Assembly (NCBI RefSeq): GCF_020520425.1
Contig: NC_079489.1
Span: 95,336,810-95,400,809 of the forward strand
Direction: 5' to 3'
Length of the DNA: 64,000 nt
Source of the DNA: Spinacia oleracea
Taxonomy: Eukaryota > Streptophyta > Magnoliopsida > Caryophyllales > Amaranthaceae
Positions 9,585 to 55,158 of the stretch are shown here, one piece after another. Within the stretch, counting starts at the first letter, position 1; the number at the start of each line of letters is the position of its first letter. The notes under the pieces were generated by a model. It worked only from the letters and a program-made list of their open reading frames with translations, had not been told where the DNA came from and made no database searches. Made by a program: the position numbers and the translations under genes.

Positions 9585-9645
9585 CAACGCGCGGATGGTA
9601 CAGGCGCGTGCACCTAGATCTAGGTGCACCTGCACCAAAACGCAG
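9585..9645. repeat. left terminal inverted repeat of the MULE
   Basis: Bases 9594-9629 match the complement of 35016-35051 with two differences, and AAAACGCA matches again after a seven-base gap. The outermost nine bases differ between the ends. It contains the palindrome at 9608-9629 (GTGCACCTAGA followed by its own complement). Confidence 0.85.
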
Positions 9646-9919
9646 AAAAATAAGAACAAAACGCAAAAACATAAAAAAGCAATAAAAAACATAAAAGAAC
9701 ACAAAAACATAAAAGAAAGAACATCAAGAATTAAACCAAAAGAACAATAAGTAAAACAGGAAAGAACAATAGCATTGAAAACGCAGAAAAATAAGAACAA
9801 AACGCAAAAACATAAAAAAGCAACAAAAAACATAAAAGAACACAAAAATATAAAAGAAAGAACATCAAGAATTAAACCAAAAGAACAATAAGTAAAACAG
9901 GAAAGAACAATAGCATTGA
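9638..9919. repeat. 141-bp tandem duplication
   Basis: Two nearly identical 141-bp units, with CGCAGAAAAATAAGAAC recurring at 9641 and 9782. Each holds several AAAGAACA words. They lie just inside the left end, so this is subterminal repeat expansion. A long minus-strand open frame across it only reflects the repeat. Confidence 0.85.
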
Positions 9920-10733
9920 AAACCAAAAAAGGTTAAAACAACAAATAAATAAAAACACGTAAAAGAACAATAAGTAAAAACACGTAAAAGAACATAAAAC
10001 ACTAAAAAGAAAGAACATCAGCAATTAAACGAAAGAACAAATAGAAAAGAACAATCATATTAAAAACCAAAAAGATTAAAACACGTAAAAGAACATAATA
10101 CACTAAAATGAAAGAAGATCAGAAAGTAAAGGAAAAGAACAAAAAGAAAAAAAGAAAAACACAAACATATTAAAAACCAGAAAGGTTAAAACAAGGAAAG
10201 AACGATTTCTCTGCACTTTTAAAAAGAACATGGCAAATGCAACACCAGACGCACAAAATAACAAAAGAACCAACGAAAAGAACAACAAAAACGTTAAAAA
10301 GTGAAAAAACCGCCAAACAGAAGTTTTTTATTGAAATAATGAACGTGGCAAGAAAAAAACTGCAAAACAGAAGTTTTCCTATGAAAACATAAAACGTGGC
10401 AGTTAATTTCTCTCTCCTCAAAATCTTTTAATAAAAAAAAAATTAAATAAGTTACTTGTCTTTCATTTTGTATTTTAAAAAATTAAAAAATAGATTACTG
10501 TTTAAAATAAAAAAAATAAAAAAATATAATTTAAGTAAAAACAGTAATAAAAAACAAATTTAAAAATACTAACAACAGATAATAAAAAGAACACAAAGGA
10601 GACTCAAACGAACATCATTTTCTTTACTTATAGGCCAAAAGAACAAAAGAGCGGACGAAAAGAACAACAAAAAAAAAGGAAGTTTAAATTTGAAAATACT
10701 GTAGCAGTTATTTTCTCTCTCTTCAATTTATCA
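9920..10733. other. MULE left non-coding region
   Basis: No gene. A-rich DNA dominated by AAAAGAACA words on the + strand. A segment near 10258-10420 (ending CAGTTAATTTCTCTCTCCTC) is echoed at about 10630-10727 (ending CAGTTATTTTCTCTCTCTTC), which suggests that a promoter-proximal block was duplicated. Confidence 0.6.
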
Positions 10734-10743
10734 TATATAAATA
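10734..10743 (+). promoter_or_regulatory. putative TATA box of the ULP1-like gene
   Basis: TATATAAATA lies 219 bases before the start codon at 10962, preceded by a pyrimidine-rich TTTTCTCTCTCTTC stretch. The space between would be the 5' UTR. Position and sequence fit a plant core promoter. No transcript evidence is available. Confidence 0.5.
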
Positions 10744-10961: not shown

Positions 10962-13900
10962 ATGGGGAAATCGAAAAAAGGAGAAGAAGTTGATGCGAAA
11001 TGTTCTATTGAGTAAGAATTCAACTTCATTTTTCTTTTCTATTTCTTGAATTTCAGTTTAATTTTAATTTTTAGAGAATTTCCCATGAATTTTAATTTTC
11101 TATAAAATTTCATTTGAAGGGATGATATTCCTTTGACAACGACTTTATTGAACTTAAGAAACAAAAAGAAGAAAGAGAAAGAAATTACACCAACAATTGA
11201 TGCGGATTTGTTGGAAGATATCAACAAAGAAATTTTAGAAACGGAAGAAGAAGAAGAGAGCGAGTAAGTGGATTTTTTAAACAAAAACCTTGGTTCATTT
11301 ACACCTTCTGTTTGTTCTTTTTGTTTTCCTTAATGTTCTAATTACAATAACGAAACCAAATACATTTTTTAACGAATTTAAAAGAAGATCTACATTTATG
11401 TTTTTTTTAAATGTATTTTAAGTCACTGAATCATACACTTAGAAGAACAATGGTATAGATTTAAAAGAACAACGAATGTTAACTCAAAAGAACAGCGGAA
11501 ATTTAAATTGAATAAGTAGATCTATGTTCTTTTATTTATTTACTGTCTGTTCTTTTTATTAGCCCTACTGTTTTGACGAGCTTAAACCTAGATCTATAAT
11601 TTTGTTCTTATCTATTGAATTTGATCTATGTTCTTTTTTATCTATGTTCTTATCTATAAAAACTTAAAAGAACCAACTGTGCAGGTTTAAAGAACAATCA
11701 ATGTAGACTCAAAAGAACAACCAATGTACACTCAAAAGAACAGTACAGTATTAATGTAGGCTTAAAAAGAACTATGCATCTGGAAGAAAAGAACAGTCCA
11801 TGTCTACTTAAAAGATCACTTGCATTAAAAGAACAATCAATGAAAATTAAAAAAAACAATGTGCTTAGATTTGATGAGATGGTGTTCTTTTTACTTGTTC
11901 TTAAATGTATTTAAAAAAAAGAACAATCAATCACGGATAAAAGAACAAACCATCTACATTTAAAAGACAAACCTAAAACTGTTAGCACACAGTAAAAGAA
12001 CACTTAATAGAAAGAACATAACAAAAGGAACATATAAGCATACCTTAATCCTCAGCAAATGATCACAATCCTCTTGAATTTCATTATCTCCTTCAATTTT
12101 CTTTCTACGAAAATTAGCAAATTGTATTTTTTCATCTCCTGAGAATTAGTATTCTGATTAATTCACTAATTCTCAAAAAAACAGGAACAATAATGCGAAA
12201 AGTTGGAGAGAAAATAATCGCATTTCACTCTTTCTCTCTCTTAAATTCTCTCTTCTGTTGAGAGAAAATAAAACCTCTCATTTTTCTCTCTCTAAAATGT
12301 GTTGCTAAAATTATGAAATGATGAATGAATGAGAATATGGAGGACAAACATTATTTATATATTGTATATGAAAAAATAAAAAAATCAGATGAATAAGATA
12401 TTGTGCAAGGGTGCAGGATGAGAACTGTGCACTTGTTTTTTGTGTTGTTCCTTTTTTCATAATATGTGTTCTTTCCAAAAGCATAGCTGTGTTCTTTTGT
12501 ACACGACATGTTGTTCTTTTTCCATTACATGTGTTATTTTAAACATTTTTCTGTTGTTCTTTTTTCATAACATGTGTTTTTGGTGTTGTTCTTTTTTTCA
12601 TGACATATGTTTTTTCATTATAGACTTTCCAAACAAAGGAAAGCATTGCAAGAACAACAGAAGATGGTGCAAGCACTTCAGAAAAAGCTGCTACAACAGG
12701 AAAAGCAGCTGGATCTGATTGAACAAAAAAAGAAGGGTGGAGAAGGACAAAAAAATTCCAGCAAAGATCCTGAAAAGCAGGAAGAAACTGAAAAGAAAGA
12801 GCATGAAGTAAAAGTGCATGAAGAAGTGAAAGAACCTGAAAAAGAGGAGGCTGAGGTAAAAGTTCCAGAAGAGCTGGATGAACCAGAAAGAAAAGAAAAG
12901 AAAACGAACTTAAAAATTACTTTGAGGTATCATCTGTGTTTGTTAATACTATTTCATATTTACATTGTAGTTGTTATTTTCGTTTCTTAAACATACTTTT
13001 GCATTTATGTTTTTACTAGAAAGAAAAAAGACGGAGAAGAAGCTGGTGAGGAACCTGAAAAAGCAAAGGGGAAGTCTAGGAAATCAATACCAAACAGGAA
13101 AAGGACAAGGTAACTTACATAAATGGTGTTCTTTTTATTTTCTGTGTTTTACTTTTTTTTTACTACTTATGTTCTATTGTTTTGGTCAACAGAAGTCAAT
13201 TGCTGAAAGAAGAATTTCCCGATCTTATAAAAGAGGTAAAGCAGGAATTGGAAGAGGCACATAAGAAGAAGAGCTTGTTGCCTGCTGAGAAAATTTCAAC
13301 AAAAAAAGTTGCACCAAATGCTAAGAAGGGGAATGGAGTTACTTTGAAAAAGACTACAGCACTTAAGGTAAACTTCACATTACCCTTTTTCAATCATTTT
13401 ATTTACCTTAATGTTATATTATAATAGAGATAAATGCTGTGTTTTAAATAAAGAATGTTCTTTTTTTCCTGTCTTGTTTTCTTTACATCATCATTTATGT
13501 TCTTTTTTCATTCAGAGGGGTAGCAAAGTTAATCAGATAGTTGTGAGGGAGGTTTATGAAGACGAGGAAGATGAAGAAGGAGGTGAAGAAGAAGGTGAAG
13601 AAGTAGAAGAGGAAAGTGAACCCTTAATGAAGAAGGGGAAAAAAGTAGTTGAGAAGGTCAAAAATTTTCTTAAGTTATTTGTTCTTTTTCTTCCATATAA
13701 TGTTCTTTTACTCCCTGACTAATGTTCTTTATATTTTTTCTTTTTTCCAGAGAGCAACAAGAAGTAAACAAATTGTTGTTTCTGATGAGGTCATGGAGGT
13801 GGTGGATGATGAGAAACCAAAATCTTTGGTTGTTGCCAAACCAAAACCTGAAGAAAGGAAACTAAATCTAAGGCAAACTCCGCAATTGATGATGCGATTC

Positions 13901-15445
13901 TTGAGGGGAATTGCATCTAATGAACCACATGATATAAGAAAACAACAAGCCATCGTGGAGTTAGGCTTTGGATCTCTTCTGCAACTTGACATCCCACAAA
14001 ACGAAAATCCATTCCCGTACGAGTTGGTTAGGAATTTCAACTCGTCCGACCGTTCCTTGCATCTACCAAAGTCTTCCCTTGATATTACTGTAGAGGATGT
14101 ATACCTGGTGTACGGTATACCTATTGGAGGAGCTCCGGTCGTGGAATGGACGGATGAACAAGATCCTGAAGTGTTGAGGGTTTTTGCTGAATTTTGGGCA
14201 TACTGGCAAGTGAAGTTTGGATGCCCAAAATTGAAAGAAATGGTTGAAAAACTGATCAAAGATGACACTCCAGTTGATGATAACTGGAAGAGATCTTTCC
14301 TAGTGGTTGCAGTTAACACCTGCATTAAATCTACTACTAATTTATCGGTAAACATCAAAATTCCTTTGTTTCTCATTAATGTTCTTTTATTTCTCATTAA
14401 TGTTCTTTTGTTTGCGTATTATGTTCTTTTAAATGTTTATTAATATTTTTATTGTTCTTTTATTTGTTTGTCGAATTCCATGTTCTTTCTTTCTCTTTCA
14501 CTGTTCTTTTATTCTGTATGATATTCCATGTTCTTTCTTACATCAAAATTCCTTTGTTTCTCATTAATGTTCTTTTATTTCTCATTAATGTTCTTTTGTT
14601 TGCGTATTATGTTCTTTTAAATATTTCTCACTGTTCTTTTATTCTGTATGATATTCCATGTTCTTTCTTACATCAAAATTCCTTTGTTTCTCATTTATGT
14701 TCTTTTATTTCTCATTAATGTTCTTTTGTTTGCGTATTATGTTCTTTTAAATGTTTATTAATATTTATTGTTCTTTTATTTGTTTGTCGAATTCCATGTT
14801 CTTTCTTTCTCTTTCACTGTCCTATTGTTGTACTTTCCTTTATATGAATTTTAGTTGTGTTCTTTTCAGTTGTATTCAATATTCTTTTGCTCTTCTTTCA
14901 TTGTTCTTTTCATTCTCTCTAATGTTCCTTTATTTTCTATTGAATGTTCTATTTTCTTATTCTATTTAAAATCATAATTAATGTTCTTTTCTTTTATATT
15001 TTTCTGTTTCAAAAGCCAAACTTCAGATTCCTAGCAAGCACTGTTGACTTGGAGCAAGTGAGGAATCTAAATTGGTGCCAGTATGCATACACCAGCCTTC
15101 TTGGGGCAGCTATGTACTGGAATGTGGACCGTAGCAGATGGTTTGCTGGTCCACTACCATTTCTAATGGTAAATTTCAATCATTAAGCTAGCATTTCCCT
15201 TTGTTATATATATTACTTTCATCTTCTTCTTTCACCTAACTAACAATAAATTATGTTGTTATTGTTAAATTAGGTATGTTATTTCGATCGGGTGCAGATC
15301 ATGGAAGAGTACCCTCCAAGGAACTTCCCCCTAATTTCTTGCTGGACAAGAGATATGATAAGCAGCAGGGTACGCAATGACAATGCTACAGGCTTCGGAC
15401 ATGGCTTGATTCTGGACAGAATTCAAGGTCCACCTGAGCTACAAC
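10962..15445 (+). CDS. ULP1-like MULE gene, 5' part (exons 1-9a)
   Basis: My GT-AG model joins 10962-11011, 11120-11263, 12624-12926, 13020-13109, 13193-13367, 13516-13656, 13751-14347, 15016-15168 and 15274-15445, then continues at 25855. All phases agree and no stop is met. The start ATG at 10962 opens a basic, lysine-rich N-terminus. Residues about 17-300 are Lys/Glu-rich and probably form coiled coil, with a strongly acidic run in exon 6. Exons 7-9 (residues about 302-610) form a globular domain with motifs such as LYLPKSSLDITVEDV-like text, VYGIPIGG and GAAMYWNVDRSRWF. This is the region found ahead of the peptidase in MULE ULP-like proteins (DUF1985 / plant-mobile-domain type, assigned from memory). 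Exon 9 is cut at 15445 by the B1 retrotransposon, so the present allele should yield a truncated product. Confidence 0.75.
11264..12623 (+). other. intron 2 of the ULP1-like gene, motif-rich
   Basis: A 1.36-kb intron with the motif in both orientations: TGTTCTTTT near 11303-11325, 11528-11650 and 12440-12600, and AAAAGAACA across about 11430-12010. The longer word AACAATCAATGTAGACTCAAAAGAAC near 11693 recurs in slightly changed form in the transposase intron near 33738. Confidence 0.6.
12035..12370 (-). promoter_or_regulatory. possible relic minus-strand promoter and exon
   Basis: On the - strand there is a TATATAAATAATG box near 12352-12365, then CT-rich DNA, then ACTAATTCTCAG as a possible acceptor. 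It is followed by about 95 bases open in one frame (reading QFANFRRKKIEGDNEIQE) and a donor-like AAG|GTATGC near 12038. It lies inside intron 2 of the opposite gene. The motif to its left is in the orientation expected for a leftward transcript. No start codon is in frame and the product is unknown. It may be the stump of a third MULE gene. Confidence 0.3.
14341..14820 (+). repeat. tandem TGTTCTTTT-bearing units in intron 7
   Basis: Units of about 130-190 bp starting ACATCAAAATTCC at 14352, 14539 and 14669 repeat the order TCTCATTAATGTTCTTTT, GCGTATTATGTTCTTTT, TTCCATGTTCTTTC. I count 13 exact GTTCTTTT words in these 480 bases, all on the + strand, and no AAAAGAAC. Confidence 0.85.
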
Positions 15446-16864
15446 TGTTAGGTTATGATTCATATGACAATTCATAAATCATGCGGAAAAACCATAAACC
15501 CAGGAAAACATATTATTTACACATAATCATTTAGCATAGATTAGATGCATACTCTTTGTTGCGTGCCTTCCCTAGCTGCGCCCGAACCGAACAAGAACAA
15601 GTTTTTAGGACTCCAAGTGTCGTCCCTCCGTAGATAGTCCACAGCACGTCCGGATCCGCCTTAAGATTGACCAACTAGAATCGCCCTTAAGGTACTATTA
15701 TTTTCGGCACTTTTGAGCAAGATGTGTGGCTGAATTTTTTTTCTCAAAAACTCACTTTGAATACTTTGAAACTTGTGTTATAAATTGTGAGCCCTAGCCT
15801 CATATTTATAGCGGTATGGAAAGGGAATCGAAATCCTATTCAGATACAAATTAATTAAACCTAGAATCCTACAAGAACTCTAATTTAATTAATTTATCAA
15901 ATAGAATTAGGAATTTAATCATTAACCGAACTCTGCATGTTTTAGGAAACGTGCACGAACACAAACACTTGCACACACACGCACGGCAGCCACGATGGGC
16001 CCCATGCGTGCGCGCGAGCAGCAGCCCACTCAGCGCCCGCGCGCGCTGCGCGCTGCGCGTGCTGTGCGCGCTGTGCTCGCTGCGCGCTGCGCGCAGCCTG
16101 CTGGGCCTGGCCTTGCGCTGGGCCTGGCGTTGCTGTTTGTGCGGCGCGCTTGGCTTGCTGGGCGATGGCCTGGCTTCGTGCTGGGCCTCGTCCGGCAGGC
16201 CTCGTCCGATGCTTATTCGTACGATGCGCTTCCGATTAAATTTTCCGATTCCGGAATTCATTTCCGATACGAACAATATTTAATATTTCCGATTCCGGAA
16301 TTAATTTCCGTTTCGAACAAATATTTAATATTTCCGTTTCCGGAATTATTTTCCGATTCCGGTAATATTTCCGATTCTGACAATATTTCCGTTTCCGGCA
16401 ATATTTCCGATTCTGGCAATATTTCCATTTCCGATAATATTTTCCGATACGTACCATGTTTCCGTTTCCGGCAACATCTACGACTTGGATAATATTTATA
16501 TTTCCGATACGATCCATATTTCCGTTTCCGGCAATATCATCGTTTCCGGAGTATTCATTTCTTGCCTGTGACGATCTTAGCTCCCACTGAAACCAAGATC
16601 CGTCGGTTCCGAATATTCATAGATGGAGTATTTAATGCCATTAAATACTTGATCCGTTTACTTACTATTTGTGTGACCCTACGGGTTCAGTCAAGAGTAA
16701 GCTGTGGATTAATATCATTAATTCCACTTGAACTGAAGCGGCCTCTAGCTAGGCATTCAGCTCACTTGATCTCACTGAATTATTAACTTGTTAATTAATA
16801 CTGAACCGCATTTATTAGACTTATCATAGAATGCATACTTGGACCAAGGGCATTATTTCCTTCA
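15446..16864 (-). repeat. 3' LTR of B1 (left copy)
   Basis: Begins TGTTAGG and ends TTCCTTCA on the + strand, so TGAAGGAA...CCTAACA on the element strand. A TATA box (TATAAATA on the - strand) lies at 15803-15810. A GC-rich stretch at 16000-16200 precedes the TTTCCG array. Confidence 0.9.
16228..16545. repeat. TTTCCG repeat array in the B1 LTR
   Basis: A run of degenerate units of about 18-20 bp built on TATTTCCGTTTCCGGCA and TTTCCGATTCCGGAA. It lies in the U3 part of the LTR on the element's own strand, so a role as a promoter enhancer is plausible. The same array recurs in the other three B LTRs (about 25213-25530, 46910-47230, 55880-56205). Confidence 0.8.
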
Positions 16865-16877
16865 GTCTCCCACTTGT
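16865..16877 (-). other. polypurine tract of B1
   Basis: On the - strand it reads ACAAGTGGGAGAC directly before the TGAAGGAA LTR start. This is nearly the same as the tract of element A (CAAGTGGGAGAT). Confidence 0.8.
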
Positions 16878-19109
16878 CCTTAGGGACAAGTGTGCATTTC
16901 CTAATTCCTTTGTCGCTCGATGCTTGCTCTTGAACATAAGGTAAGAGTTGTCATCCTTATTATGTCCAGAGGTGTTCCTCGGTTTCAGAGTTCAACTGAT
17001 CAAATAAACAGATAATCATAGCCTATGATTCATCCGAGCACGGCCATGCATTTCACAGTTTCTAGCTCTCCGAGTGGCCTTGTACAACTTTTAAGCATCT
17101 CATCCCGATTTATGGGAGGACAATCCCAATCTTGCGATCTTGAGATTAGACTTCGTTTGATAGGTGATTACCTGAGCGTTGCCTTTATAGCCTCCTTTTA
17201 CGGTGCGACGGTTGGTCAACGTCAAAGCAACCAGTTCTCAAACAAGTAATCTCAAATCACTCAGGTATTGAGGATTTAGTGTCTAATAATTTAATGAAAT
17301 TTACTTATGACAGATTTTCATCTCTTACAGTAAAGTTTCATAGGTCTTGTCCGATACTAGTCTTCCCAAAGTAAGTATCTATGCAAATGATTATGACATT
17401 GCCATGTCCACATAGTTCAAGAAACCGAACTACTAGTCATCTTGCATTCTAGTCGTCTAACGTTTTCTATGCGTCCAATTTTATAGAGAACTCCGACTAG
17501 GGACCATTTTCAACCTTTGACTTTCAAGTTCACTTGATAGACATTTCTTAGTCACAGGACTGGTCCTGACAGTCTATCTTGAATATATCGTCAAATTTGA
17601 AGGGACTCATCATTTAATACTAAACCAAGATTAAATGGAATATGAAAATACATTTCATATATGATAAATGTTCAACCCCAATGTTTTATAACCATGGGCC
17701 TCAAACCCATCTTCTAAAACAATTCGTGGAATTCAAAGCTATGCTTGATTTCCAGTGCGACAATGTGAGTGTTGCTTCTCACTTGTTGCATAGGTTTAGT
17801 TATCATTCTTTGCCAATCTTAATATCCTTTTTCATCGAATGTTCTTCGAGATATGATGAAAAGATCTTTTCGAGTTTGTTTATTATGTGATCTAGTCTTT
17901 CTTACTTCGATGGTGGTTTTACTCACTTTGCAATGAAGAACCATCAAGTTAGCAGACGTTTTTCTTGCTTCAAGAGTGGTTCTACGCATTTTTCAATGAA
18001 GAACCATCAAGCCAGCAGATAGGTGATCTACCCAAGTTCAGTGAAGAACTTTAAACAACCCTGTTTTATTGCTTCTTAGGCAATAATTACTTTTACTTCA
18101 ACTGTATAGGTTGCTAGTGATGCTTTGTTTGGATTTACCTATCCAAGCAGTTCATAGATATGTGGAAGACTCTCCAACTATATCTTAGAACATAGAAATT
18201 ATTATTTTAATTTCCCACGCAACAACTCATGGTCTCCAATCCATGTTGCCATTTCAAAACACGATACTCTATAGCTCGTCCTTATCAATGGTTAACTCCA
18301 AAGGGTCTTGCTTGATCCTTTGCCAGTGTTTATGCGTGTAGCATCAATATTTAGCATATCTTTATTTCCTTGAATCAAGAACTATTCCTATGTACCTTTT
18401 CAAGTACCATAAGTATTCTTGATCTCAATCTAGTTGATCTTCACTTAGATCAATAGAGATTGGTATATGTTCGTCATGCCTAAAGTCATACGATACATTT
18501 TTGGCGATCCTCATATTATATCATACATGATAAATTCTTTTGCAGAATAATTCCCAATTGAATTCTATTCATGTAACTTTAGCTTATCTAGTTTCAGTAG
18601 ATACTAAATTCAGCTAAATTCTTTGACATATAATATAGGTTAAGAATCTTATTTAGATCCTTTGATGTTTAACTTAGTAAATGCTTATACATAGTTCAAA
18701 CATCCTTTACTTAGATTTATTCATATGGGTCGAATATCTCCAATGGAGACTTTCGTGTTTGATTTAGTAAATGTCATTACTTAATCTAAAACAATATTAT
18801 AAGATCTTTGTAAATAGATCTTAATACCCAATATGTACTAAGTTTCGCCATGGTCCATTATTGATGAATAATTTCAAATCTAAGTAATTAGCATTTGAAT
18901 GTTATTTCATAATAGAGAGATATGTGTGTGATACACATAGGACCAATTAAGTTTTACGTACTCCCACTAAACTTCTTATATATCTATAAGAATCATGTAT
19001 ATTTTATGAAACTAAAATACTTATTAGCTTCACTAAAATACAATTCCAATTCCCAATTGCTTGCTTAAATCTGTACTTAGATTTCCTAAGCTGGCATTCA
19101 TTTCAAGCA

Positions 19110-19440
19110 TTATTTGGATCCACAAATCCTATGACATGACATGTACATAGTTTTCTTCCAACATTTGATTGAGGAATATGTTTTGTCATCCAATTGCCAT
19201 ATGTACCAATATGCAATCATTGCTTGATTTATAGACTTGAGCATTACGATTATGCATGAGGTTTCAACACAATCCATGCCATGAATTTGCTTGTAACCTT
19301 TTAGCAACTAATTTAGCTTTGTGTTGTGAACACAATTTCATGTTTGATGGTTTTTATCCTTAAAACAGACTTGCAACCAATAGGTGTGAAACTATTCTTG
19401 CAAATCAACAAAATTTCAATTTTGTCATCAAAACATTGAG
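19110..19440 (-). pseudogene. reverse-transcriptase remnant in B1
   Basis: The - strand reads fragments resembling the copia RT segment PIGCK...KAKLVAKGYKQIHG, then CVET...MLKSI and IWQLDDKT. The same order (KARL...GF.QIHG..YDET, AMLKSI, IWQMDVKT) is seen in element A at 44890-45110. Catalytic regions downstream are not readable. The same decayed text recurs in B2 at 49792-50034. Confidence 0.7.
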
Positions 19441-22400
19441 TATGTTTTATGGCCTTTAACCAATTAAACATATAGTCTATATATGGCCTCTAACCATTTT
19501 AGGGAATCTATATTTCGTCATAGCTTTCTTACAAGTCACAAACTCATTAATCTATATGATAATAGTTTGACTGCAAGTTGTAGGTTTCTTCACTATTTAA
19601 TAGAAGAATCTCATAGTTTCATTGACCTGATCTCTATGTTTCTTCACTATCTAATAGAAGAATCTCATAGTTTCAGTGACTTGAATTCTATGCCTACTTG
19701 GGTATAGAACATCAAACAATAGAATATCAATAGCCACTTGAAAGTCCTTTGAATATTCTGTTCTCCTTGAAGCACTTGTAAAGTCTTCTAAGAGATGTCT
19801 ATTCTTTAAAGCCACTTCTAAAGTCCTTAAAGAATAAGTTCGGTTTTTCTGAAGCACTTCGAAAAGCCTCCGGAATGTCCGTTTATGTTTGTTGTTCGCC
19901 TCGAAGACTTTCGAGGTCTATTTTCTCCCACTTGTCATTTTGGAAACGAATCTCCAAAAGGACATTATTTCGAGCAAACAAACATTATGTTCTCAAAAAT
20001 TCGTGGTAGAAACAATACCCTTGTGTCTCATTTGAATAAATCACAATGAAACATATATCTAGACTTGGGCCTTAGTTTGTTGAATAACAAACACTAAGCT
20101 CCCACTGAGTTTAGCAACTCTTTAGATATATATAATTGAAAAGATATCCTGAAATTACTTTTCAATAGCTTTGACGAATTTGGTTTAGTTTGGTGGTAGT
20201 TGAGCATTTTGTTTTAGAAATTATAGGAAAAGTCTTTATGATTCATCATTGATCGAATCAAGTACTAATTGACTTCGATTATTCCAACTACAATATGCCA
20301 TATATTATGGACCTAGATTGTGAAATTACAACACACAATCATTGATGATCATATTTGGTCTCAAGTAATCATCAACATGATCTAACCTAGATCTTTATGA
20401 TTTCTTGCCAAGTGGATTTTATACTTCTGAATCTTTGAACTAGCCAAACAGATTCAACTTATATCACATTTGAGTAAATAAACCTACATTCACTCAAATC
20501 CATGCGAAATAATAAAGTCATAAAATCTTTCTTTAGCTTTGAACTCTATTGTCTAGGCGTTCTAACAATAGTTCACATCTTTTGTTACTTTCAACAAGTA
20601 AGACTAGCTTGTCTTAAGTTGATCTAGAAATCAACCAACTTTCAAAAGTCCATTAAAATAGAGTTTTTGAATGTTAACTTGTTGATATGGTCTAAGCAAC
20701 AATGCCAAAGATTAGTGGAACTCAAATCAAGGGGTTGATTTGAACCTAGTAAAGTTCTTTAAAGAGTTGTTTGTTTTAATCAAGCATATTGACTCATCCC
20801 GTAAATGACCATTTCATTCAAATAAACAAACAAACAAGCATTGTTTTTGTTCTTCTGAATGTGAGTCTTTCTGTGTTTGAAGCAGAAATTTAGGTATGCT
20901 GATTATGGAATAAAATAGCCATTTAGTTCCAGCCTTTGAAGGGACTTAAAACAAACTAGATGACCCTACAACTAATGTAGCATTTCCATGCTTCATTTCC
21001 CACTTGTAGGTCATTAGTGTATCCTAGCTTCCATTGTTTGAGTTATTATCGAAGTAAGAACCTCAAGCGGTATATGATACCAAGGAAGTTTGATTGCTAG
21101 GTCACTTCTCTTTAAACATAAACTTATAGGTAGAAACGAAATCGTAAATTCCTTTCATTTGTTCCCCGTTTTCCTATTTCTTGTACCCTTTCTTATAGTC
21201 TTAAGAATTGAATTCTTTAGTGTTGACTTTTATACTTTGTTAGACATGTCCAATGTCACCCCAACAAGGTTCTTAACATTTAATTTATGTTGAATATTAA
21301 GTTTCAACTAGATGATCTTACCAGAAGCTTCTAAAGTTCTCTAAGCATCGATCTATTCGAATGTCTAGGGACTAGACTCATTCGAGAATTAAATGGACAA
21401 AGATATTAGGTTGTTAACCATTGGTAAAGCTGAGCGTTTAAGCTCAATGCTTTATGATCTCAAAACTACAGTGTATTTTGAATTCACAAGCACCAATTGG
21501 TTTGCCATTCGAATTTGATATTCGAAAACAACCATAAAAGTCGATATAAGAAACGTACATTTTAAATTGCTCACTTTCTCTCTGTTCCGTGAATCGTTCT
21601 TGGATTCACTACCAATCGAGGAAATTTACTGTTACCTTTCTAAAAGGATTTATTGCAGTGCAAGATATTTAATTATAAACAATAATTAAAACATACATTG
21701 AAGCATGCAAAGTCTAAACATTTATCATGAATAATAACTTGAAATTAAAGCAACCATGCAATTCAAACAAGTTATTAGCATTTTATTCGATTTTATTGTT
21801 CCGGCAGGTGTGAATAAAATGATTCCAAGATCCTAAAACCATTGAAGAATTAAGCACAGTTTGTCGACTCAATTCTAAAACATTTTAGGTAAGCAAAAGC
21901 CTTTTGCTAATAGTCTAAAAACTACTCTTGGTTGATAGGTACGTCTAAGAACTTATTAGGTAAACCTATCGATTTTGCCACGACATAAAAGGACTCCTTA
22001 CTTATATCGTTGAGTTTCACCAAAACTAACATGTACTCACAATTATTTGTGTACCTTGCCCCTTTAGGACCAATAAGTAACACCTCGCTGAGCGAAAACT
22101 ATTACTAGATTGATGTAAAGGATATCCAAGCAAGTGTATATTTTGGCATGGCACCTTTTAACTCAATTTTTTTTAAGTTTGGAACTTAAGGCTCTTACTA
22201 TGTTGGTTAGATTTTAAGTGAACTAAAATCCTTAATCATGCAACATAATCAAGCCACAATCTTATGCATAATTAAGACATATTTAAAGCAATAAATAACT
22301 TAAAGCATGCATAAGATAAATGTGATCTAGTATGGCCCGACTTCATCTTGAAGCTTTAACTTCAAAGTCCGTCTTGAAAATCTCCGTGGGAGGCACCATT

Positions 22401-24422: not shown

Positions 24423-24436
24423 GGCTCGTGATACCA
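24423..24436 (-). other. primer-binding site of B1
   Basis: On the - strand it reads TGGTATCACGAGCC, one base in from the 5' LTR. It resembles the initiator-Met tRNA primer site used by copia elements. Confidence 0.8.
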
Positions 24437-24437
24437 C

Positions 24438-25849
24438 TGTTAGGTTATGATTCATATGACAATTCATAAATCATGCGGAAAAACCATAAACCCAGGAAAA
24501 CATATTATTTACACATAATCATTTAGCATAGATTAGATGCATACTCTTTGTTGCGTGCCTTCCCTAGCTGCGCCCGAACCGAACAAGAACAAGTTTTTAG
24601 GACTCCAAGTGTCGTCCCTCCGTAGATAGTCCACAGCACGTCCGGATCCGCCTTAAGATTGACCAACTAGAATCGCCCTTAAGGTACTATTATTTTCGGC
24701 ACTTTTGAGCAAGATGTGTGGCTGAATTTTTTTTCTCAAAAACTCACTTTGAATACTTTGAAACTTGTGTTATAAATTGTGAGCCCTAGCCTCATATTTA
24801 TAGCGGTATGGAAAGGGAATCGAAATCCTATTCAGATACAAATTAATTAAACCTAGAATCTTACAAGAACTCTAATTTAATTAATTTATCAAATAGAATT
24901 AGGAATTTAATCATTAACCGAACTCTGCATGTTTTAGGAAACGTGCACGAACACAAACACTTGCACACACACGCACGGCAGCCACGATGGGCCCCATGCG
25001 TGCGCGCGAGCAGCAGCCCACTCAGCGCCCGCGCGCGCTGCGCGTGCTGTGCGCGCTGTGCTCGCTGCGCGCTGCGCGCAGCCTGCTGGGCCTGGCCTTG
25101 CGCTGGGCCTGGCGTTGCTGTTTGTGCGGCGCGCTTGGCTTGCTGGGCGATGGCCTGGCTTCGTGCTGGGCCTCGTCCGGCAGGCCTCGTCCGATGCTTA
25201 TTCGTACGATGCGCTTCCGATTAAATTTTCCGATTCCGGAATTCATTTCCGATACGAACAATATTTAATATTTCCGATTCCGGAATTAATTTCCGTTTCG
25301 AACAAATATTTAATATTTCCGTTTCCGGAATTATTTTCCGATTCCGGTAATATTTCCGATTCTGACAATATTTCCGTTTCCGGCAATATTTCCGATTCTG
25401 GCAATATTTCCATTTCCGATAATATTTTCCGATACGTACCATGTTTCCGTTTCCGGCAACATCTACGACTTGGATAATATTTATATTTCCGATACGATCC
25501 ATATTTCCGTTTCCGGCAATATCATCGTTTCCGGAGTATTCATTTCTTGCCTGTGACGATCTTAGCTCCCACTGAAACCAAGATCCGTCGGTTCCGAATA
25601 TTCATAGATGGAGTATTTAATGCCATTAAATACTTGATCCGTTTACGTACTATTTGTGTGACCCTACGGGTTCAGTCAAGAGTAAGCTGTGGATTAATAT
25701 CATTAATTCCACTTGAACTGAAGCGGCCTCTAGCTAGGCATTCAGCTCACTTGATCTCACTGAATTATTAACTTGTTAATTAATACTGAACCGCATTTAT
25801 TAGACTTATCATAGAATGCATACTTGGACCAAGGGCATTATTTCCTTCA
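24438..25849 (-). repeat. 5' LTR of B1 (right copy)
   Basis: 1412 bp, TGTTAGG to TTCCTTCA on the + strand. It differs from the left copy by one 7-bp deletion in the GC-rich part and about two substitutions (near 24861 and 25647). Confidence 0.9.
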
Positions 25850-25854
25850 ACAAC

Positions 25855-28800
25855 TGTACAGGGAGGAGATGGAGCTGCTCAAACAGCAAAAAGCACTCAG
25901 TGAACAACCACCACCACTTCTTCTTCAACACCCACAACAACAACAGCAGCAACATGATGAACAACCATCGCAGCAACCACTGCAGCAACCACAACAGCAA
26001 CATCAACACCAAGAGCCTAACTGGTCCACAAATGATGTGTCCAGAGAACATCAAGGTGCACCAGTGACTCAACTCGGGGATGACAAAGATTTGCCAGAGC
26101 AACAGGCAGACCCCAGTGAGAAAGCAAAAGTCCCTTCTACAATTGAGGTAAAAATTAAATTCACTCAACAAAACCATTGCATTTATTTTTTCAACGTTTT
26201 TGTTGTAATGTTCTTTTTCCTCCAACAAATGTTCTTTTACGTACTCAATATAATCTTTTTTCCTACCATGTTTTTTGCTTTTTGTGTTTATGTTCTTTTT
26301 ATCAAAAACTAGTTCTTTACGTTCTTTTACATGTTCTTTTAAATGTTTATTCATGTTATTTAAGCATGTTCTTTTTTCTTAAAAAGATGTTCTTTACATT
26401 TGAATGTTCTTTTATATGTTTAAGCATGTTATTTACATGTTCATTTATCTCTTTAACATGTTCTTTCGATCTTTAACAATGTTTCTATGCTCTACTTGAA
26501 TGTTCTTTTAGGGATCTCTCTTGTTCTTTTTTCCATTCGAATGTTCTTTTTATTTATCCAGTCCTTATTGTTGTTATTGTTAAACAGGAATTCCATGCTG
26601 AATTCACTAAAACCACTACTGAACTCAGTAGTGTCATGAACAAGTTCAACGACTTATTGTCGTTGTCCAGAAAGTTCTTTGACACTACTATTGATGTCAA
26701 AAAAAGTCTGCCATTCAATATGGCAAAAATGTGGTCAACATGCTCTGGAACTGAAATTCCAGTTACTTTTGAGAAGGGCAACTCTACAGAAGAGCGGCAA
26801 GAAGGAAGGAATACTGAGGAGATTGGTTCAATCCTCAGTCAAGATAAAGAATTTTTCAGTTCAGACTACTTCACAATACTATTTGAGGAAGCAGTACGAA
26901 AGGCAACAGAAGGAAATGAAAGAAAGGAAATCAAGGAATCTGAGGATGTTACATTTGATTTGCCACCATTTTTAACACCTCCGATCATGCCTTCCCAGCC
27001 TAATGTATTTGCTGATTTGACATTGAAGCTTGGAATGGTTTCCGATTCAAATCCTCCTCCTCAGGCACACGACTTTGAAGAGGAAATGAGATTAGAAGCA
27101 ATCTTGGCAAACAAAACTTTGACTGAACGTGATTTGGAGACAATTTCAGGGGACAACAAAGATGAAGCTGAAAAACAACAGCCACCTACAGAAAAAACTG
27201 AGTATGCGTTCTTTTAAAACAGTTCACATACACATGTATAATAAATATGTGACTGTTTCTTTCATTATTCACAATGTTCTTTTATAAACAATTATTTGTT
27301 TTTTTATTCGTTTGATTTGTTCTTTTTATTAATTCTCTGTCTTTATACAATTATTTAATGGATCTTTTGTTTCTTTTATTCGGAATGTTCCTTTCATATA
27401 TTTCTTTATGTTCTTTCTATATTTACTTTAATATCTTCCTACTTTTAATATTAACTTATATGTTCTTTTTCATTGCACTTTTGTTCTTTAATTCTTCTCA
27501 TTGTGTTCTTTGTTCCTCCTCACATGTTCTTTTTTTTTTTTGTAATACACAGAGAACCTGAAAATGTGAGATCAGATATGGAAGGTTTAATCCAAGGAGC
27601 TGAAGATGGAAAACCAATGTCTCCAACCGTTAGAACTGAAGACTCCGAGTTTCAGACTATGGAAGGTTTAATCAAAGGAGCTGAAGATGGAAACCCCATG
27701 TCTCCAACTGTTAGAACTGAAGAATCCGAGTTTAAGACTCCAACTGCCGCTGAGTCGCAGACTGAAATGGAAACTCCATCAATATTCCTGAAGTAAGACT
27801 ACTGTATTTTATTAAAATATAATTTTCATAATCTTCAATTTAATGTTATTTTCTTTCTCTCTTTTGTTCTTTTTATTTATAGTAATATATTCTTTTCTTT
27901 CCACTCTTTTAGCACTCCAAGTGCGGTGTACTCGCAACCAGAAAATGCACCTACATCTATGAACATAGAGTATGACTACTGCATTTTATTTTATAAGTTA
28001 TTTTTCGTTTATTATTACAAGTTATTTTTCATTATCATTTATAAAATGTTCTTTTCTTTTCACTTTGTTGTTCTTTTTATTGTTAGTCTGAATTCGTTTT
28101 TCCCGCTAATATGTTCTTTTTACTTTATAATGTCTTTGTTTTCATAAGTGAGGAAGAGGATCCAGATAACGTACAAGTACCTAAACTTGTTAAGAGAAAG
28201 AAAAATGTTCCCCTCAAGTTACTGTCACCCTTCTTAACTCAGTATTCACACCTACTGGTTGGGGAAGAACAGTTGAATCAAAAGGAAAAGGACATGCGAT
28301 GCGTACTGGATTATGCCTTTGGAAAGGGAAGCCCAACGTAAGAATTTTATACTATTACAAGTATTTGAATGTAGATGTTCTTTTTGTACATGTTCTTATG
28401 GAAATTTTATTTTCATTCTTATAACAGTCAGGTGTTGTACACTGATGATTGGAATATAGTTACCAGAGAAGAGTTTCAAACCCTAGGTATATATTTAATT
28501 ATTGGAATTTAAAATGTTCTTTTAAATGCTGTTGATGTTCCTTTTACTCATATTTTTGTTCTTTTCCTTTAAAACAGCTCCCAATGTGTGGGTGATGAAT
28601 AATGTTATTGACACTTTTGCAAGAATACTGAATGATGATCCAGATCAAAGTGTCAAGAGTAACTTGAAGTTCTATTTCTCTACAATCCCTTTCGTAAGTT
28701 TTAATATCACTAAAAAATCATATTTTCGTACTTCTTCAATAATTTTTATTATATAACATATATTTAAAATTATTTTTTTTTCGGTGCAGAATATGCTCTG

Positions 28801-29723
28801 CCAGAATGAACCGTATGGTGGATCACAGGATAGTCAAGCAACCGAAAGCAAACGCTTAGAAAATTTTATTTTAAGTGTACGCCATGAGTATGAAACTGCT
28901 GGTGTGAAGTCTTTGAAGGGATTCCATCTGGTAAAATTATAAAATTGTTCTTTTCTTTTTTACATATGTTCCTTTTCCTTTGTTTAATGTTCTTTTCTCT
29001 GCTTGTAGTTGTTCTTTCCAGTCTGGTCTGGTGATCATTTTTATCTCATTGTAATCAACCAAAAGGCGAAGAAGGTGGAGATCATTGACAATCTCTCCTT
29101 ACCTGAAGGAATTACATATGATGATAAATATAAAACATTTGCAGAAAGAACTGTAAGTCTATTTGAAGAATTTCCTCTTATATATTTTATTTGTTCTTTC
29201 CTTTGTTGTTCTTTATTCTTTTACTAAATTAAATGTTCTTTTTTCCTTCCTTTGTTGTTCTATGTTTCTTTGTTGTTCTTTGTTCTTTGTTCTTTTACTA
29301 AGTTAAATGTTCTTTTTATTTCAGTTTGAAGCATGGACAATATTTTCTGAACAAGAAGGACATTCTTTGCGGAAGGCACAGATTTCAGCATATGAAATTG
29401 TGTTGCTTGAAATGCCATGGAAGAACAGAACAAACAAGACTGATTGTGGGGTATATGCAATGAGGCATATGGAGACCTACAAAGGCAACCAGACTTGGAA
29501 TTGTGGCTTCAAAAACACAGATGAAGATGTAAGTAAATTTTGAATATATGTACGTATATTATTTTAATATATAATCTTTTATTAATGTACTATTTTATGT
29601 TTTCAGAAAGACTTTATTTGCAGGCTGAGAATGCGGTACGGTACTGAAATCTTATTATCCGTTCTGAACAAAAGGCATGAGCTAATGTATCTGGCATTGA
29701 AGAGAGCTAATCAAGTTGAATAG
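25855..29723 (+). CDS. ULP1-like MULE gene, 3' part (exons 9b-19, C48 peptidase)
   Basis: Exons: 25855-26147, 26588-27201, 27553-27792, 27913-27969, 28149-28337, 28428-28486, 28578-28693, 28790-28930, 29009-29152, 29325-29528, 29607-29723, stop TAG. Joined to the 5' part with one ACAAC copy, the frame is open for 1332 codons. Exon 9b encodes a Gln/Pro-rich linker. Exon 11 holds a duplicated 27-residue unit. The C-terminus is a ULP1-type cysteine peptidase: His about 1188 (WSGDHFYLIVIN), Asp about 1205 (EIIDN) at the 17-residue spacing of yeast Ulp1, and Cys about 1267 (TDCGVYAM). The oxyanion Gln usually six residues before the Cys is not present (Arg there). ULP1 enzymes remove SUMO. Whether this one does is unknown. 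Confidence 0.8.
27578..27739 (+). repeat. 81-bp in-frame tandem duplication in exon 11
   Basis: Two 81-base units (27578-27658 and 27659-27739) each encode 27 residues starting MEGLI and containing GAEDG and PMSPTVRTE. The second unit has a few substitutions. The frame is preserved. Confidence 0.85.
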
Positions 29724-30268: not shown

Positions 30269-33200
30269 CTACAAAGGTTGTATGTGTACTCCAAAATAAT
30301 CATCTGGAACATATGCTTCCAATTGTGAATTTGAAGATGTTGGATGAACCAAAACCCCACCAACAGGTAAATTTATGATACACTGAAAAAGAACAAACAA
30401 ACAATAAGGAATAAAAGAACATGATAAAGAAGAAAAAAGAACAAAATAGATAATAAAAAAGAACAGTTCAAAAAAGAACGTAATAAACATTAAAAGAACA
30501 AATAGATGTTTTTTTTAAAAATGAACTGTTTAGCAAAAAGAACATAAACAAAAAGACGAAAGAACATATAGAAAGAAAAACGAACAATGATAAACAAAAG
30601 GAACAAACTAAAGGAATAAAAGAACAAATAGATTATTAAAAAGAACAGAACATAATAAAGTAAACTAAAAGATCATAAACAAAAAGGATAAATAGAACAT
30701 AAAAATGGAAAAAAGAACAATGATAAACAAAAAGAACATTCCAAAGTAATAAAAGAACAAATAAATGTTTAAAAAGAACAGTTTACCTGATCAGTAGACT
30801 GAGTTTCCTCCCTCAAATTATCAACATGTCTTTCTCTTCTCTTGTTCCAACCTTTCAGTTTATTGCGTTTCTTCTCAACAATTCCTTTAGGTCTCACATT
30901 CCTCTCATTAGCCTTTTCAGTCCCGTTCTTAATCTTCCTCTTTCGCTTTGGTGGATTTTGAATCATTGTTGGAATGACTTTTTCAGCAATCGGTTCAACA
31001 ACATCCGGCAAAACTGTGTCTGTTGAAGGCTCAATGCCATCAAGTAGAGTTTCTTCTCGCACATACTTGTTTGATACATTACCATCCCCTTCAACACCAC
31101 CAATATACTCCTTCACTTTGCATGACATATCCAACACACCCAAATCAATAAGCTTCCTTGCAGCCGGACAATGTTGAGCTTCATTTATAACTTTAATGCA
31201 ATTTCTTATGCTTTGCATCCTCCATACTGAAGCAGAAACAACACTTACTTCATTATCTCTATCTTCTCCTTCTTCAACAATCATGTTCATAGCCTTTTTG
31301 GTCCATCTCTTCATAATGTATTGTTTGGGAATCTCTTCAACATTATGGACAATGAAAACTCGAAGAATATGAGAACAAAGAACTCCTATCTCTCCATATG
31401 ACTTGCAAGTACAATCAACAACCACTCTTGCTCATTAAACATCACAACATGTCTAATAAAATCCTTTGTAGGATGCCCAACAATGTACTTAGAAACTGGA
31501 AACTCATAGGAAATGCGTTGACACCTCAAACCAATTGCTTTGATGAATCGTTGCTCAAATATCAAATATATTGCAATGGTATACACATCCCGCGCATGCA
31601 AACATAACATGTTATCCGCACATGCGTAATATCTATTTCCAGTAGAAGAATTATAATCTCCCTTGTTCTCCTTACTTCTCCATTCATCAATTACATCTAA
31701 AAAACACTTATAAAAATCACATAAACCATTCGTTTTATGCAACCTCCTAGAAATAGAATGATTTGTCGTCTCACTCCTTTGAGAAGATAAAATACCCCCA
31801 GAAAACCACTCTTTGTTATATGCAGGACACCATTTCTCTTTCAAATCATATAACCTCTCTATCCATTTGTGTGTCTTGCAATTGTAATCAGTCATAAGAC
31901 TACAAAAGAACAAACGAGGAGAACAAAAGAACAATCAGAGACACAAAACGAACACCCTGAGTAAAACAAAGAACAAATGAAGACAAAAAAAGAACAATAT
32001 ACAGTACAATAAAACTTGAAAAGAAAGTACACACAATCACAGTTCAAGAAGTATGGACTCTATTAAACAAAGAAAAGAACATTAAAATACCAGATTAAAA
32101 GAACAAGTTTCATCAACCATGAAAAGAACACTATTTAACATTACAAAAAACATGTCGTCGAATGAAAAGAACAAAACAAAATTTTAAATACTAATCAGTC
32201 TATTAGCAAAATAATTTTTACCTATTCCAATAATGCTCGAACTCAGCAACTGTGTCAGTATATTTCAAAACATAATCAAAGCGACGTTTGAAACCTTCTT
32301 TGGCCATAACACCTTTGATGTTTACAACAGCATTTTCCCCAATGTGCCATGTACACAAACGATGCCTCGATTTTGGAAACACTTCCCTAAAAAACCATAA
32401 ACCAAAAAAATAGATAAAAATATAAACTAAACAAAAAGACAAAAGAAAAAGAACATAAAAAATAGTACAAAAATACAAAAGAACAAAAGTGTTTGATGAA
32501 CGAACATACAAACAACCTAAAAGAACTTTACCTTATAGCCTTGTCCATGGCAGAAGATTGATCAGTCATGATAGTCACAGGTTGCTTCCCTCCCATTGAA
32601 GTCAAAAAAGAATTAAAAAGCCAGTCAAAAGTACCTGCCTTCTCATTCAATATAAAACCCACTCCAAACATGATATTTTGAGTGTGAAGATTCATTCCAA
32701 CAAAAGGCCCACAAATCATATCGTATTTATTAGTACGATAAGTTGTATCATGAATCAATAAATCACCAAAAGCTTCATAATCAGACCGCATTCTTCCATC
32801 TCTCCAAAAAAAATTGATCAACTGATTCTCTTCATTCAATTGAAAATCATAATAAAAATCATGTTCTTTAGCTTGCCTCATAGCGAACCATCTGATCAAC
32901 TGATTTGAATCACAACCATCCAACTTTTTCTTCTTCTCTGCCAAAACAGCATCATACGCGTCAGGAACAGTGAACCCTAAATTCGCCTCACCACCAACTT
33001 CTTTCCTCATAGCTCTAAGAACATCAGCAAGCTTCGTGCCACTACAAGTAAAAGTAGTAAGAAAAGCCAATTGTTCCTTTGAAATGTGCCTATGTGACCT
33101 AATAAGGTGTCTCTTATTAGCAGGAACCATTGAATGGTTATGCAGACGGGAATGTTTAGAAAGAACATACACTCCAGTTTTCTTATCAACATCAAACTGA

Positions 33201-34769
33201 ACTGAAGCCTTGCATCCAGTTCTCCTATCAATTTTTTTAAAGGATTTAGGCACAACACCATCTGGATTTTTAAACCCCTCGTATGCACAAACAAAAAACC
33301 GTTGTCGAACTATTCTAGTACCACTTCTATACTCCTTTTTACCCTTCCTAGTACCAAAACCATTCCTAAATGCATGACTGTTGTATAACTCATACGCCTC
33401 ATCATCATCCTTAACTACACTTCCCTCTAATGAAACTGGTTCTTCAAAATCTGCATGACGATAAAAAAGAACACAAAGAACATCATAAGTATGATAAAGG
33501 AACAAACACAAGACGTAAACGAACATTGTGATAAACAAGTAAAAGTACAATTCATGTACCTTGGCCAACAACCACATAGGATTCTGGATCCTCATTAGCA
33601 TCATTTTGTTCTGAATTATTAACTGAATTATTTAATATATCTGGAAATTTATAAAATAAAAAAAATCAGAAAAAGAAAAGAACAAAAGAACTTAAAAGAA
33701 CAGTAGCCATTAAAAAGAACAATGCACAGAGTAAACGAACAATCCATGTAGACTGAAAAGAACACTAGGCATGAAAAGAACAATCAATGAAGAGTTAAAA
33801 GAACAATCAATTAGTCAATCAAAAGAACACATTAAAACTTAAAAGAACAATTTGGGCAGATATAAAAGAACAACCAATAAAGAATAAAAAACAACAGTAC
33901 CTATTAGAAAAGAACAATGCATCAAGAGTAAATTACACACTCCAACTAGACTGGAAAGAACACTACGCATTAAAAGAACAATCAATAAACAGTTAAAAGA
34001 ACAATCAGTTTTGTCAATCAAAAGAACACATTAAAACCTAAAAGAACAATATCGGCATAATTATCAACAATCAATTTTGTCAATCAAAAGAACAATGTAA
34101 ACTCATAAAAACATAAAAGAAAAATCCGTGCAAATATAATAAAAAAACCAATAAAGAATCAAAGGAACAGTAACTATTAAAATGAACAATAAAAATAGAG
34201 TAAACGAACACAAAAAGAACACTATGACTTAAAGAACAATCAATGAAGAGTTAAAAGAACAATCAATAAAGAACAATCAGTGTTTATTTGAAAAGCTAAA
34301 TATAATAAAAAGGAACGTCTCAATACGTATTCTTAACATGTTCATTTGATACTGAAAAATGTTCTTCTGAAATGATACAATGTTCTTTTCTGCAAACAGA
34401 CAAAATCAACGTATCTTCCTTAAATATAATAGTTATTACAGAATCAGTTTCACCACATAAATGAAATAAATGCGAAATCAACGAAAAAACCAATTCGTAA
34501 CCTTCATTATCAACAATCACCAAAATCAACAAAGAATGAGATTCAAAATTAAATTAATCAAACTAATTACAATCACAAAAAACATAAAAAGTACGATTAT
34601 TATGAAATCGAAATCATAAAATCAAAGAAAAATGCAACTCGTTATTACAAATTGAAAGAATACCTTCGTAACTCTGATTTTCAGCTGAAGAATTCAGATG
34701 ACAAGAAGAAGAATCATTCGAAATTGATGTTGAAACAGAGAAATCATGGAATATTTGAGAATTTTCCAT
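30269..34769 (-). pseudogene. FAR1-type MULE transposase, one frameshift
   Basis: Six exons on the - strand: 34769-34664, 33640-33560, 33450-32532, 32386-32222, 31899-30787, 30382-30269. Phases agree throughout if one base is missing at about 31424. The product would be about 832 residues. Domains: FAR1 DNA-binding domain (33410-33110; DEAYELYN, RTGCKA, HNHS); MULE transposase core with LIHDTTYRTN, TIMTDQSSAMD and the C-x2-H motif LCTWH; SWIM zinc finger C-x-C-x9-C-x-H at 31350-31415. The start ATG at 34769 lies behind a CT-rich leader. The reading frame breaks between EQEW and VDCTC, just before the SWIM finger, where a GG run looks one G short. The allele is therefore probably dead for transposition, unless this is a sequencing error. 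Confidence 0.85.
33641..34663 (-). other. intron 1 of the transposase gene, motif-rich
   Basis: A 1.02-kb intron almost wholly built of AAAAGAACA-centred units such as AAAAGAACAATCAATGAAG. Near 34366-34390 the motif is inverted (TGTTCTTCT, TGTTCTTTT). Confidence 0.65.
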
Positions 34770-34984
34770 CAGTTTCTCTCTCTAAAAAAAATTTATGCAC
34801 AAATGTAAGCTTTCTCTCTCCTATTCACACTTTTTGAATTCAAAATTATGAAGCCCAGACATATAAAAAGGAGCGAAGAACAAAAAAAATCGCGAAAACT
34901 AAACAGGGAAGAACAGAGCACATGATGTTCTTTTGTATTGTGAGACTTGTTCTTTTTAACTGCAGAATTAATGAAAATACGCGT

Positions 34985-55157: not shown

Positions 55158-55158
55158 C

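Follow-up and report, generated by a model that had tools for sequence, protein, structure and literature searches.

Why does a single transposable element carry one short word 133 times in its non-coding DNA and not once in its exons? This question is raised by a stretch of 64,000 nucleotides from spinach (Spinacia oleracea; NC_079489.1, positions 95,336,810 to 95,400,809), referred to here as the window, which holds a Mutator-like element (MULE) at 9585-35060 with two convergent genes, A and B, and with dense arrays of the word GTTCTTTT (AAAAGAAC on the reverse strand). In this study, we determined where the word occurs, how its copies are spaced and which words are found in related elements of the same genome. 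The word is very probably a site for a protein encoded by the element itself, and this protein is probably the product of gene A, in which a region resembling the plant mobile domain (PMD) is joined to a Ulp1 domain. On balance, we also lean towards the complete account, namely a PMD-based system of self-recognition and anti-silencing resembling that of the VANC proteins of Arabidopsis VANDAL MULEs.

Distribution and orientation of the word

A preliminary description of the window, made from the letters alone, had reported 13 GTTCTTTT in 14341-14820 and 16 AAAAGAAC in 33661-34110, numbers which were reproduced exactly by our recount. The window contains 134 copies, 65 forward and 69 reverse, of which 133 start between 9693 and 34949 and a single one lies outside at 39825. 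Thus, the non-coding part of the element (8,568 bp) holds 133 copies, with about 4 expected from dinucleotide shuffles. For the individual sequence classes, the mean of 200 dinucleotide-preserving shuffles per segment was used as null (given in brackets), and the element borders were set to 9586-35059, i.e. one base short per end. The word was counted 15 times in the 1,376 bp of the left end (0.8), 68 times in 4,354 bp of gene A introns (1.6), 5 times in the 545 bp between the genes (0.1), 43 times in 2,003 bp of gene B introns (1.4) and twice in the 290 bp of the right end (0.1). There was no copy in 6,497 bp of exons (0.9), none in the 10,409 bp of a nested long terminal repeat (LTR) element (0.8) and one in 38,526 bp of flanks (4.0). 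The reported confinement to the non-coding DNA of the MULE, including the intergenic copies near its left end, was thereby upheld, and the comparison with a shuffled null proposed at that time places the word far above composition-matched expectation there. As the exon null is 0.9, the zero count in exons indicates no enrichment and not a proven depletion. An effect of the neighborhood was rejected, because the word is absent from the nested LTR element and likewise from the 90.6% identical second copy of this LTR element at 46200-56519.

The strand of the word switches between the convergent genes, as noted before. Intron copies are mostly sense, with 57 sense and 11 antisense copies in gene A, the latter all within intron 2, and 42 sense and 1 antisense copies in gene B. 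The arrays at the ends are antisense to the neighboring gene (left 15 of 15 on the minus strand, right 2 of 2 on the plus strand). In intron 2 of gene A, 11666-12069 is 63% similar to 33821-34225 in intron 1 of gene B on the same strand; this stretch was perhaps duplicated from gene B, which would explain the minus copies there.

Of all 9-mers that occur eight times or more in this non-coding DNA, none exceeds its second-order Markov expectation as strongly as TGTTCTTTT (123 vs. 3.3), whose exact copies stand in 65 distinct contexts. Variants with G replaced by T (10 vs. 7.7 expected) or C replaced by T (6 vs. 7.1) occur at about the expected frequency, so the enrichment is not due to T-richness. 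Substitutions of T by C were found 9 times at the sixth and 18 times at the ninth base (8 and 13 after removal of duplicates), and never at the third and fourth base. The element comprises the following features:

9576-9584: left target-site duplication TTTGGATAC, same as 35061-35069
9585-35060: MULE with the LTR element nested in gene A, delimited by terminal inverted repeats, target duplication and genes
9594-9664, plus strand: left terminal inverted repeat, 71 nt, 82% complementary
9693-10665, minus strand: left-end array, 15 AAAAGAAC by word count
10962-29723, plus strand: gene A for a PMD-like and Ulp1 protein, 20 exon pieces (hand-built GT-AG exon model; Pfam)
11264-12623, plus strand: second intron of gene A with 9 words on the plus and 11 on the minus strand, the sole gene A intron with minus copies
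13751-14347, plus strand: gene A exon with most of the PMD-like region, used as genome-search query
14348-15015, plus strand: intron 7 of gene A, with 16 words by word count the densest array on the plus strand, period 21
15447-25855: nested LTR element, borders approximate, LTRs 98.5% identical, 0 words
26148-29606, plus strand: gene A introns 10-19, 27 plus words in 8 of 10 introns by word count
29009-29528, plus strand: Ulp1 catalytic region, His, Asp and Cys aligning with yeast Ulp1
30269-34769, minus strand: gene B for a FAR1-MULE-SWIM transposase, 6 exons (exon model; Pfam)
30383-30786, minus strand: gene B intron 5 array, 13 words by word count
33641-34663, minus strand: array in the first intron of gene B, 18 words on the minus and 1 on the plus strand by word count
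34927-34956, plus strand: 2 right-end words by word count, antisense to gene B
34981-35051, minus strand: right terminal inverted repeat, partner of 9594-9664
35061-35069: right target-site duplication TTTGGATAC, same as 9576-9584

Spacing of the copies

The copies tend to follow each other on the same strand at about 21 bp, a feature absent from the preliminary description. For the core GTTCTTT, 59 of 136 adjacent same-strand pairs are 19-24 bp apart, whereas random placement gave a mean of 16 and a maximum of 36 (2,000 trials). After removal of pairs with similar spacers, the 83 left include 22 spaced by 19-24 bp and 19 spaced by 40-46 bp. Half of the distinct pairs less than 40 bp apart (n = 44) fall at 19-24 bp vs. 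20% at random, and 0 of 2,000 trials were as high. Where steps are skipped, a match to 8 of 9 bases was found between both sites in 11 of 25 cases (1.7 expected). Adjacent spacers are 50% alike vs. 45% after shuffling (26 triples). Since the spacers are dissimilar and a step of 20-24 bp is preferred, word and step are kept and the remainder is nearly free.

Genes and termini of the element

The transposase, the 9-bp target duplication and the terminal repeats identify the element as a MULE. Both TTTGGATAC copies lie 9 nt outward of a conserved GATGG in the terminal repeats. In Pfam, gene B matched PF10551 (E 4.7e-27), FAR1 (2e-14) and SWIM (4e-4); due to a frame shift near 31430, this copy of the MULE is probably not autonomous. 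The left terminal repeat contains GCGCGTG (9604), which is the FHY3/FAR1 site CACGCGC on the opposite strand, and adjoining it the palindromic CACCTAGATCTAGGTG (9611). Within the window, the palindrome around CACCTAGATCTAGGTG is restricted to the two terminal repeats (9611-9626 and 35019-35034); an exact match of the CACGCGC type was not found in the right terminal repeat.

The gene A model stays open upstream and downstream of the nested LTR element. Its second half scored 20.7 bits against Ulp1/C48, which equals the cut-off, and its His, Asp and Cys were aligned to 1euv, this second stretch scoring 1.4 bits only. These residues have the catalytic roles in yeast Ulp1, and gene A is predicted to carry a Ulp1 (C48) domain with this triad. 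DUF1985, the VANC domain, was not found by Pfam, which returned only PMD for the PMD region (E ≤ 10) and only PMD and C48 for both halves (E ≤ 1). Coding tandem repeats are located at 12763-12896 and 27572-27739 of gene A. Solved structures gave no match to the PMD region, used as single sequence or as profile; there was no Rfam match within the window and no NCBIfam match.

Motif types in related elements

A search of related copies had been suggested before, and it revealed arrays in 30 of 33 PMD-type loci. The PMD-exon search of the genome, in which 150 of 409 candidate places were scored, gave at least 28 places with 91-100% identity over nearly the whole exon, which is free of stops in 23 of them. 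The 33 loci comprise 22 with TGTTCTTT (TTT), 6 with TGTTCTAA (TAA), 1 with TGTTCAGA (AGA), 1 with AAA/ATA and 3 with none, and motif type tracks PMD subfamily in 30 of the 33 loci read. The TTT loci include the window, a second element (see below), L096 and L099 (70% and 52%). Behind the PMD exon, TGTTCTTT was present in all 14 fetched relatives (60-99% identity), with 6 to 21 sense copies per 1 kb. L109-L112 (PMD 37-47%) have fewer, 8 to 13 in 6 kb vs. about 1 expected. In L113, L114, L131, L132, L133 and L135 (PMD 27-34%), TGTTCTTT is replaced by TGTTCTAA, L137 (PMD 30%) has TGTTCAGA, and L136 (PMD 33%) has TGTTCAAA and TGTTCATA with some TGTTCTTT. Hence, the TGTTC core and the lattice are kept, and the tail varies along with the PMD lineage; different words occur in related element families, as in VANC/VANDAL systems. 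In an 11-row tree, one change parts TTT from TAA (support 91/90). Relative to the PMD gene, all 22 TGTTCTAA of L113 are antisense and L114 has 20 and 14 on the two strands, which speaks against U-richness of introns as the cause of the strand.

Two further observations were made in these loci. L138 (C5:63391600-63394099), where the transposase of the L113 element lies, contains 8 TGTTCTGA (0.2 expected) beside 4 TGTTCTAA; TGTTCTGA is perhaps a fifth tail or a variant. Opposite-strand PMD pairs 5-12 kb apart in the 31% group (C3:19493366/19498773, C3:101442167/101451140 and C5:63388352/63400808) may reflect elements with two PMD genes each, or nesting of copies.

Linkage and divergence of the two genes

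In the transposase search, a relative of gene B was found within 40 kb of 76 of the 139 PMD places compared, and all 76 pairs are convergent. In the TGTTCTAA-type locus L113, a FAR1-MULE transposase with 29% identity to gene B follows downstream on the same strand, so that convergence is not universal. The PMD diverges faster than the transposase: at 11 of the 18 places with a PMD identity of 59-64%, the transposase is 84-93% identical, and at the other 7 no transposase was among the matches listed nearby. No Ulp1 match was found in the pieces of L113/L138 read, where a very diverged Ulp1 could escape detection, and the arrays seem to need no Ulp1. When 150 of 655 candidates for MUDRA-type transposases (PF03108) were scored, only two were seen by eye at up to 30 kb from PMD places of the TGTTCTAA group, and this type was rejected as its partner; L138 has a FAR1-MULE transposase instead. 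The DUF1985 model matched at least 149 places in the same genome, possibly a classical VANC-like family, and none lies within 10 kb of a PMD (121 DUF1985 vs. 81 PMD places).

Word pairs and further copies in the genome

Pair searches were run on the window's own 894-Mb genome with the pattern read backwards as control. At 21 bp, 3,942 GTTCTTTT pairs were found vs. 35 reversed, at 26 bp 83 vs. 22 and at 16 bp 69 vs. 9. The permuted word GTTTTCTT gave 15 pairs at 21 bp and 696 in its backwards reading, the latter probably because TTCTTTTG sits inside GTTCTTTTG. For TGTTCTAA, 8,353 pairs at 21 bp vs. 3 reversed were obtained, partly in plain satellites; for TGTTCAAA at 22 bp, 287 vs. 7, some of them in a dispersed repeat of a different kind; and for TGTTCAGA, 44 vs. 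0, of which 39 have a PMD or transposase place at a distance of up to 40 kb and 34 one at up to 10 kb. Satellite-like TGTTCTAA runs with 21-bp steps and similar spacers are located at C1:2399531-2400425, C1:2660596-2661442 and C1:11221164-11221809.

Around the first listed places with GTTCTTTT pairs at 21 bp, 20 regions were fetched, 4 of which matched gene A or B. Two adjoining ones of these contain a second complete element with the same convergent order as in the window and arrays throughout; its transposase pieces are 89-97% identical to gene B, its PMD half 60-84% and its Ulp1 half 34-65% identical to gene A. In L089, L092, L095, L097, L098, L100 and L101, 25-40 motifs and matching terminal repeats were found without a gene match. 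That these short motif-dense elements are unrelated carriers was rejected, since L097 and L100 share 64-94% BLAST similarity with autonomous elements, of which they look like deletion derivatives. The remaining 9 regions have 2 to 19 motifs and no gene match, so that only part of the pairs can be assigned to an identified element.

Viral (4) and prokaryotic (76) stretches with the word were taken as chance or local repeats, mostly with about 1 word per kb, a density that covers loci with six or more copies and the four viral ones. One contig of a metagenome-assembled bacterium (CAKZQG010000001.1, 3,552 bp) has 33 GTTCTTTT on a single strand. Elsewhere in the window, a 372-aa frame at 59833-60951 (minus strand) appears by eye isopentenyltransferase-like, and frames at 3149-6789 and 42238-46215 appear copia-type retrotransposon-like.

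Proposed function and alternatives

Because the anatomy of the element is that of VANC targets, we infer that the gene A product binds the word and protects the element. The protein, in this subfamily a PMD-like region with Ulp1, would recognize TGTTC plus a subfamily-specific tail. Sites about 21 bp, i.e. two helical turns, apart would share one face of the DNA, and dense same-strand arrays could load many molecules cooperatively, with lone sites elsewhere being ignored. The bound protein would keep off or strip repressive chromatin at the ends and in the introns, as VANC does on Arabidopsis VANDALs, and the outcome would be expression of transposase and gene A. Related elements would have changed protein and tail jointly, each system being confined to its own family and non-autonomous derivatives. 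At slightly less than even odds, this would be a second sequence-specific anti-silencing lineage of PMD type instead of DUF1985, with TGTTC and the two-turn lattice constant and the tail (TTTT, TAA, AGA, AAA) switched together with the protein.

The preliminary description had named the ULP1-like protein as possible partner of the word. Gene A does carry the predicted Ulp1 domain; its other half is PMD-like, and we favor this PMD half as the recognition part, because L113/L138 has arrays without detectable Ulp1.

Several observations weigh against the anti-silencing account. The N-terminal half of gene A matches PF10536 with an E value of 3.6e-6 and 26.8 bits, at a curated cut-off of 34.9, and among seven relatives Pfam found a weak PMD (E 0.0006-0.04) in four and none in three. 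The PMD-type loci L115, L130 and L134 have no array in the piece read. The AGA and AAA/ATA types consist of one locus each plus the genome-wide pair counts, L136 being a mixture, and the TTT type spans 37-100% PMD identity, so that the co-change is coarse. As 40-51 of 500 shuffles cluster equally well and L111 (TTT) is the nearest neighbor of the TAA pair, the tree by itself proves little. Some pairs are located in satellites or in repeats that match no gene, and the transposase is likewise present in array-bearing elements.

Among the alternatives, the one that survives best, although we consider it unlikely, is that the gene A product binds the arrays as activator, repressor or SUMO-pathway regulator. 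Evidence of the binding type fits this equally, the Ulp1 domain with its aligned triad would suit the SUMO pathway, and passages of PMC5418596 describe the Arabidopsis PMD proteins MAIL1 and MAIN as acting in silencing without DNA methylation. However, arrays throughout the introns and at both ends are more like VANC targets than promoters, and VANC21 acts primarily via removal of silent marks and not via activation according to passages of Hosaka et al. (PMC5735166).

Next comes, also improbable, binding of the word by the FAR1-type transposase, the other partner suggested previously, with internal sites for transposition or self-regulation. The FAR1 domain is present in gene B, and a FAR1-MULE transposase also accompanies the TGTTCTAA-type gene of L113 and thereby the arrays. 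The transposase is nevertheless the weaker candidate: the FHY3/FAR1 site, given as CACGCGC in the relevant passage of PMC7181604, fits the left terminal repeat and not the word, and the word is spread through introns, not just near the ends. That transposases 84-93% identical share the same word where the PMDs are 59-64% identical does not discriminate between gene A and FAR1.

Neutral tandem duplication, i.e. satellite-like slippage, is very improbable as the sole cause. Tandem arrays are present, the 123 exact words collapse to 65 contexts and 21-bp TGTTCTAA satellites exist elsewhere in the genome; against this stand the nearly free spacers, the step maintained among them and several words with one core in different PMD lineages. 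Tandem duplication helped to spread the word and is insufficient alone. The least credible alternative, a T-rich intron word aiding splicing whose strand follows transcription, would fit the mostly sense intron copies, but it fails on the 17 copies that both ends together carry beyond the gene models, the 5 between the genes, the T-rich neighbors of the word without enrichment and the strands in L113 and L114.

Comparison with known systems

The combination of domains has precedents. Passages of Ikeda et al. 2017 (PMC5418596) report PMDs captured by MULEs and speculate that they serve anti-silencing of transposable elements, Dupeyron et al. 2019 (PMC6446971) describe in part PMDs beside MULEs of several plant groups including VANDAL, both placing PMDs in or beside MULE transposases, often antisense, and a passage of PMC7156037 mentions genic PMD proteins fused to a protease. 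Therefore, neither PMDs in MULEs (PMC6446971) nor PMD plus protease (PMC7156037) is new in itself. The PMD-MULE passages of PMC5418596 and PMC6446971 report no target motif, unlike here. Our literature search found no paper linking plant mobile domain, Ulp1 and transposon, and none that names this motif in titles and abstract openings. The speculation of Ikeda et al. 2017 becomes testable with a high-copy family, an exact candidate site and natural protein and site variants in one genome.

KIU-type VANC genes with a captured Ulp1 domain, as described in passages of the review PMC13317346, are likewise MULE genes with Ulp1, and sequence-specific hypomethylation of related elements is reported there. 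KIUs are presented in these passages as VANC genes with Ulp1, whereas here the other half matches PMD.

If the proposed system exists, self-tagging by motifs is not limited to VANC proteins with DUF1985 and may be widespread among MULEs of plants. The natural protein-motif series in one genome would then allow a recognition code to be read from it, and matched protein-motif pairs would become available for directing demethylation to chosen DNA. Specificity in eudicot VANC systems is reportedly set by the sequence of the motif, its density and its helical periodicity (Sasaki et al. 2022, EMBO J). The principle is known from Arabidopsis; new with respect to the papers compared seem to be the PMD companion, the plant and the word series with a common core, although the work on eudicot VANC systems may already include similar cases and lessen the novelty.

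The parallel to VANC drawn in the preliminary description is strongly supported genome-wide by the same-strand non-coding arrays, the preferred spacing and the varied words in relatives, and does not extend to the protein, as anti-silencing proteins of VANC/VANDAL systems are defined by DUF1985 (and DUF287). In the passages of Hosaka et al. 2017 (PMC5735166) on Arabidopsis VANDAL MULEs, VANC21 and VANC6 have their own motifs and VANC genes carry coding tandem repeats. As with VANC21 and VANC6, a fast-evolving element-encoded protein with tandem repeats is accompanied here by dense same-strand words in the element's non-coding DNA, and related families have different words (theirs being YAGTATTAY and AGTTGTCC/AGTTGTAC in these passages). 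Unlike them, the spinach system has PMD-like and Ulp1 parts, a putative binding of the word, a TGTTC core common across subfamilies, a 21-bp lattice, terminal repeats and another plant as host. In spinach, each family seems to label itself for a protein of its own, probably to escape silencing.

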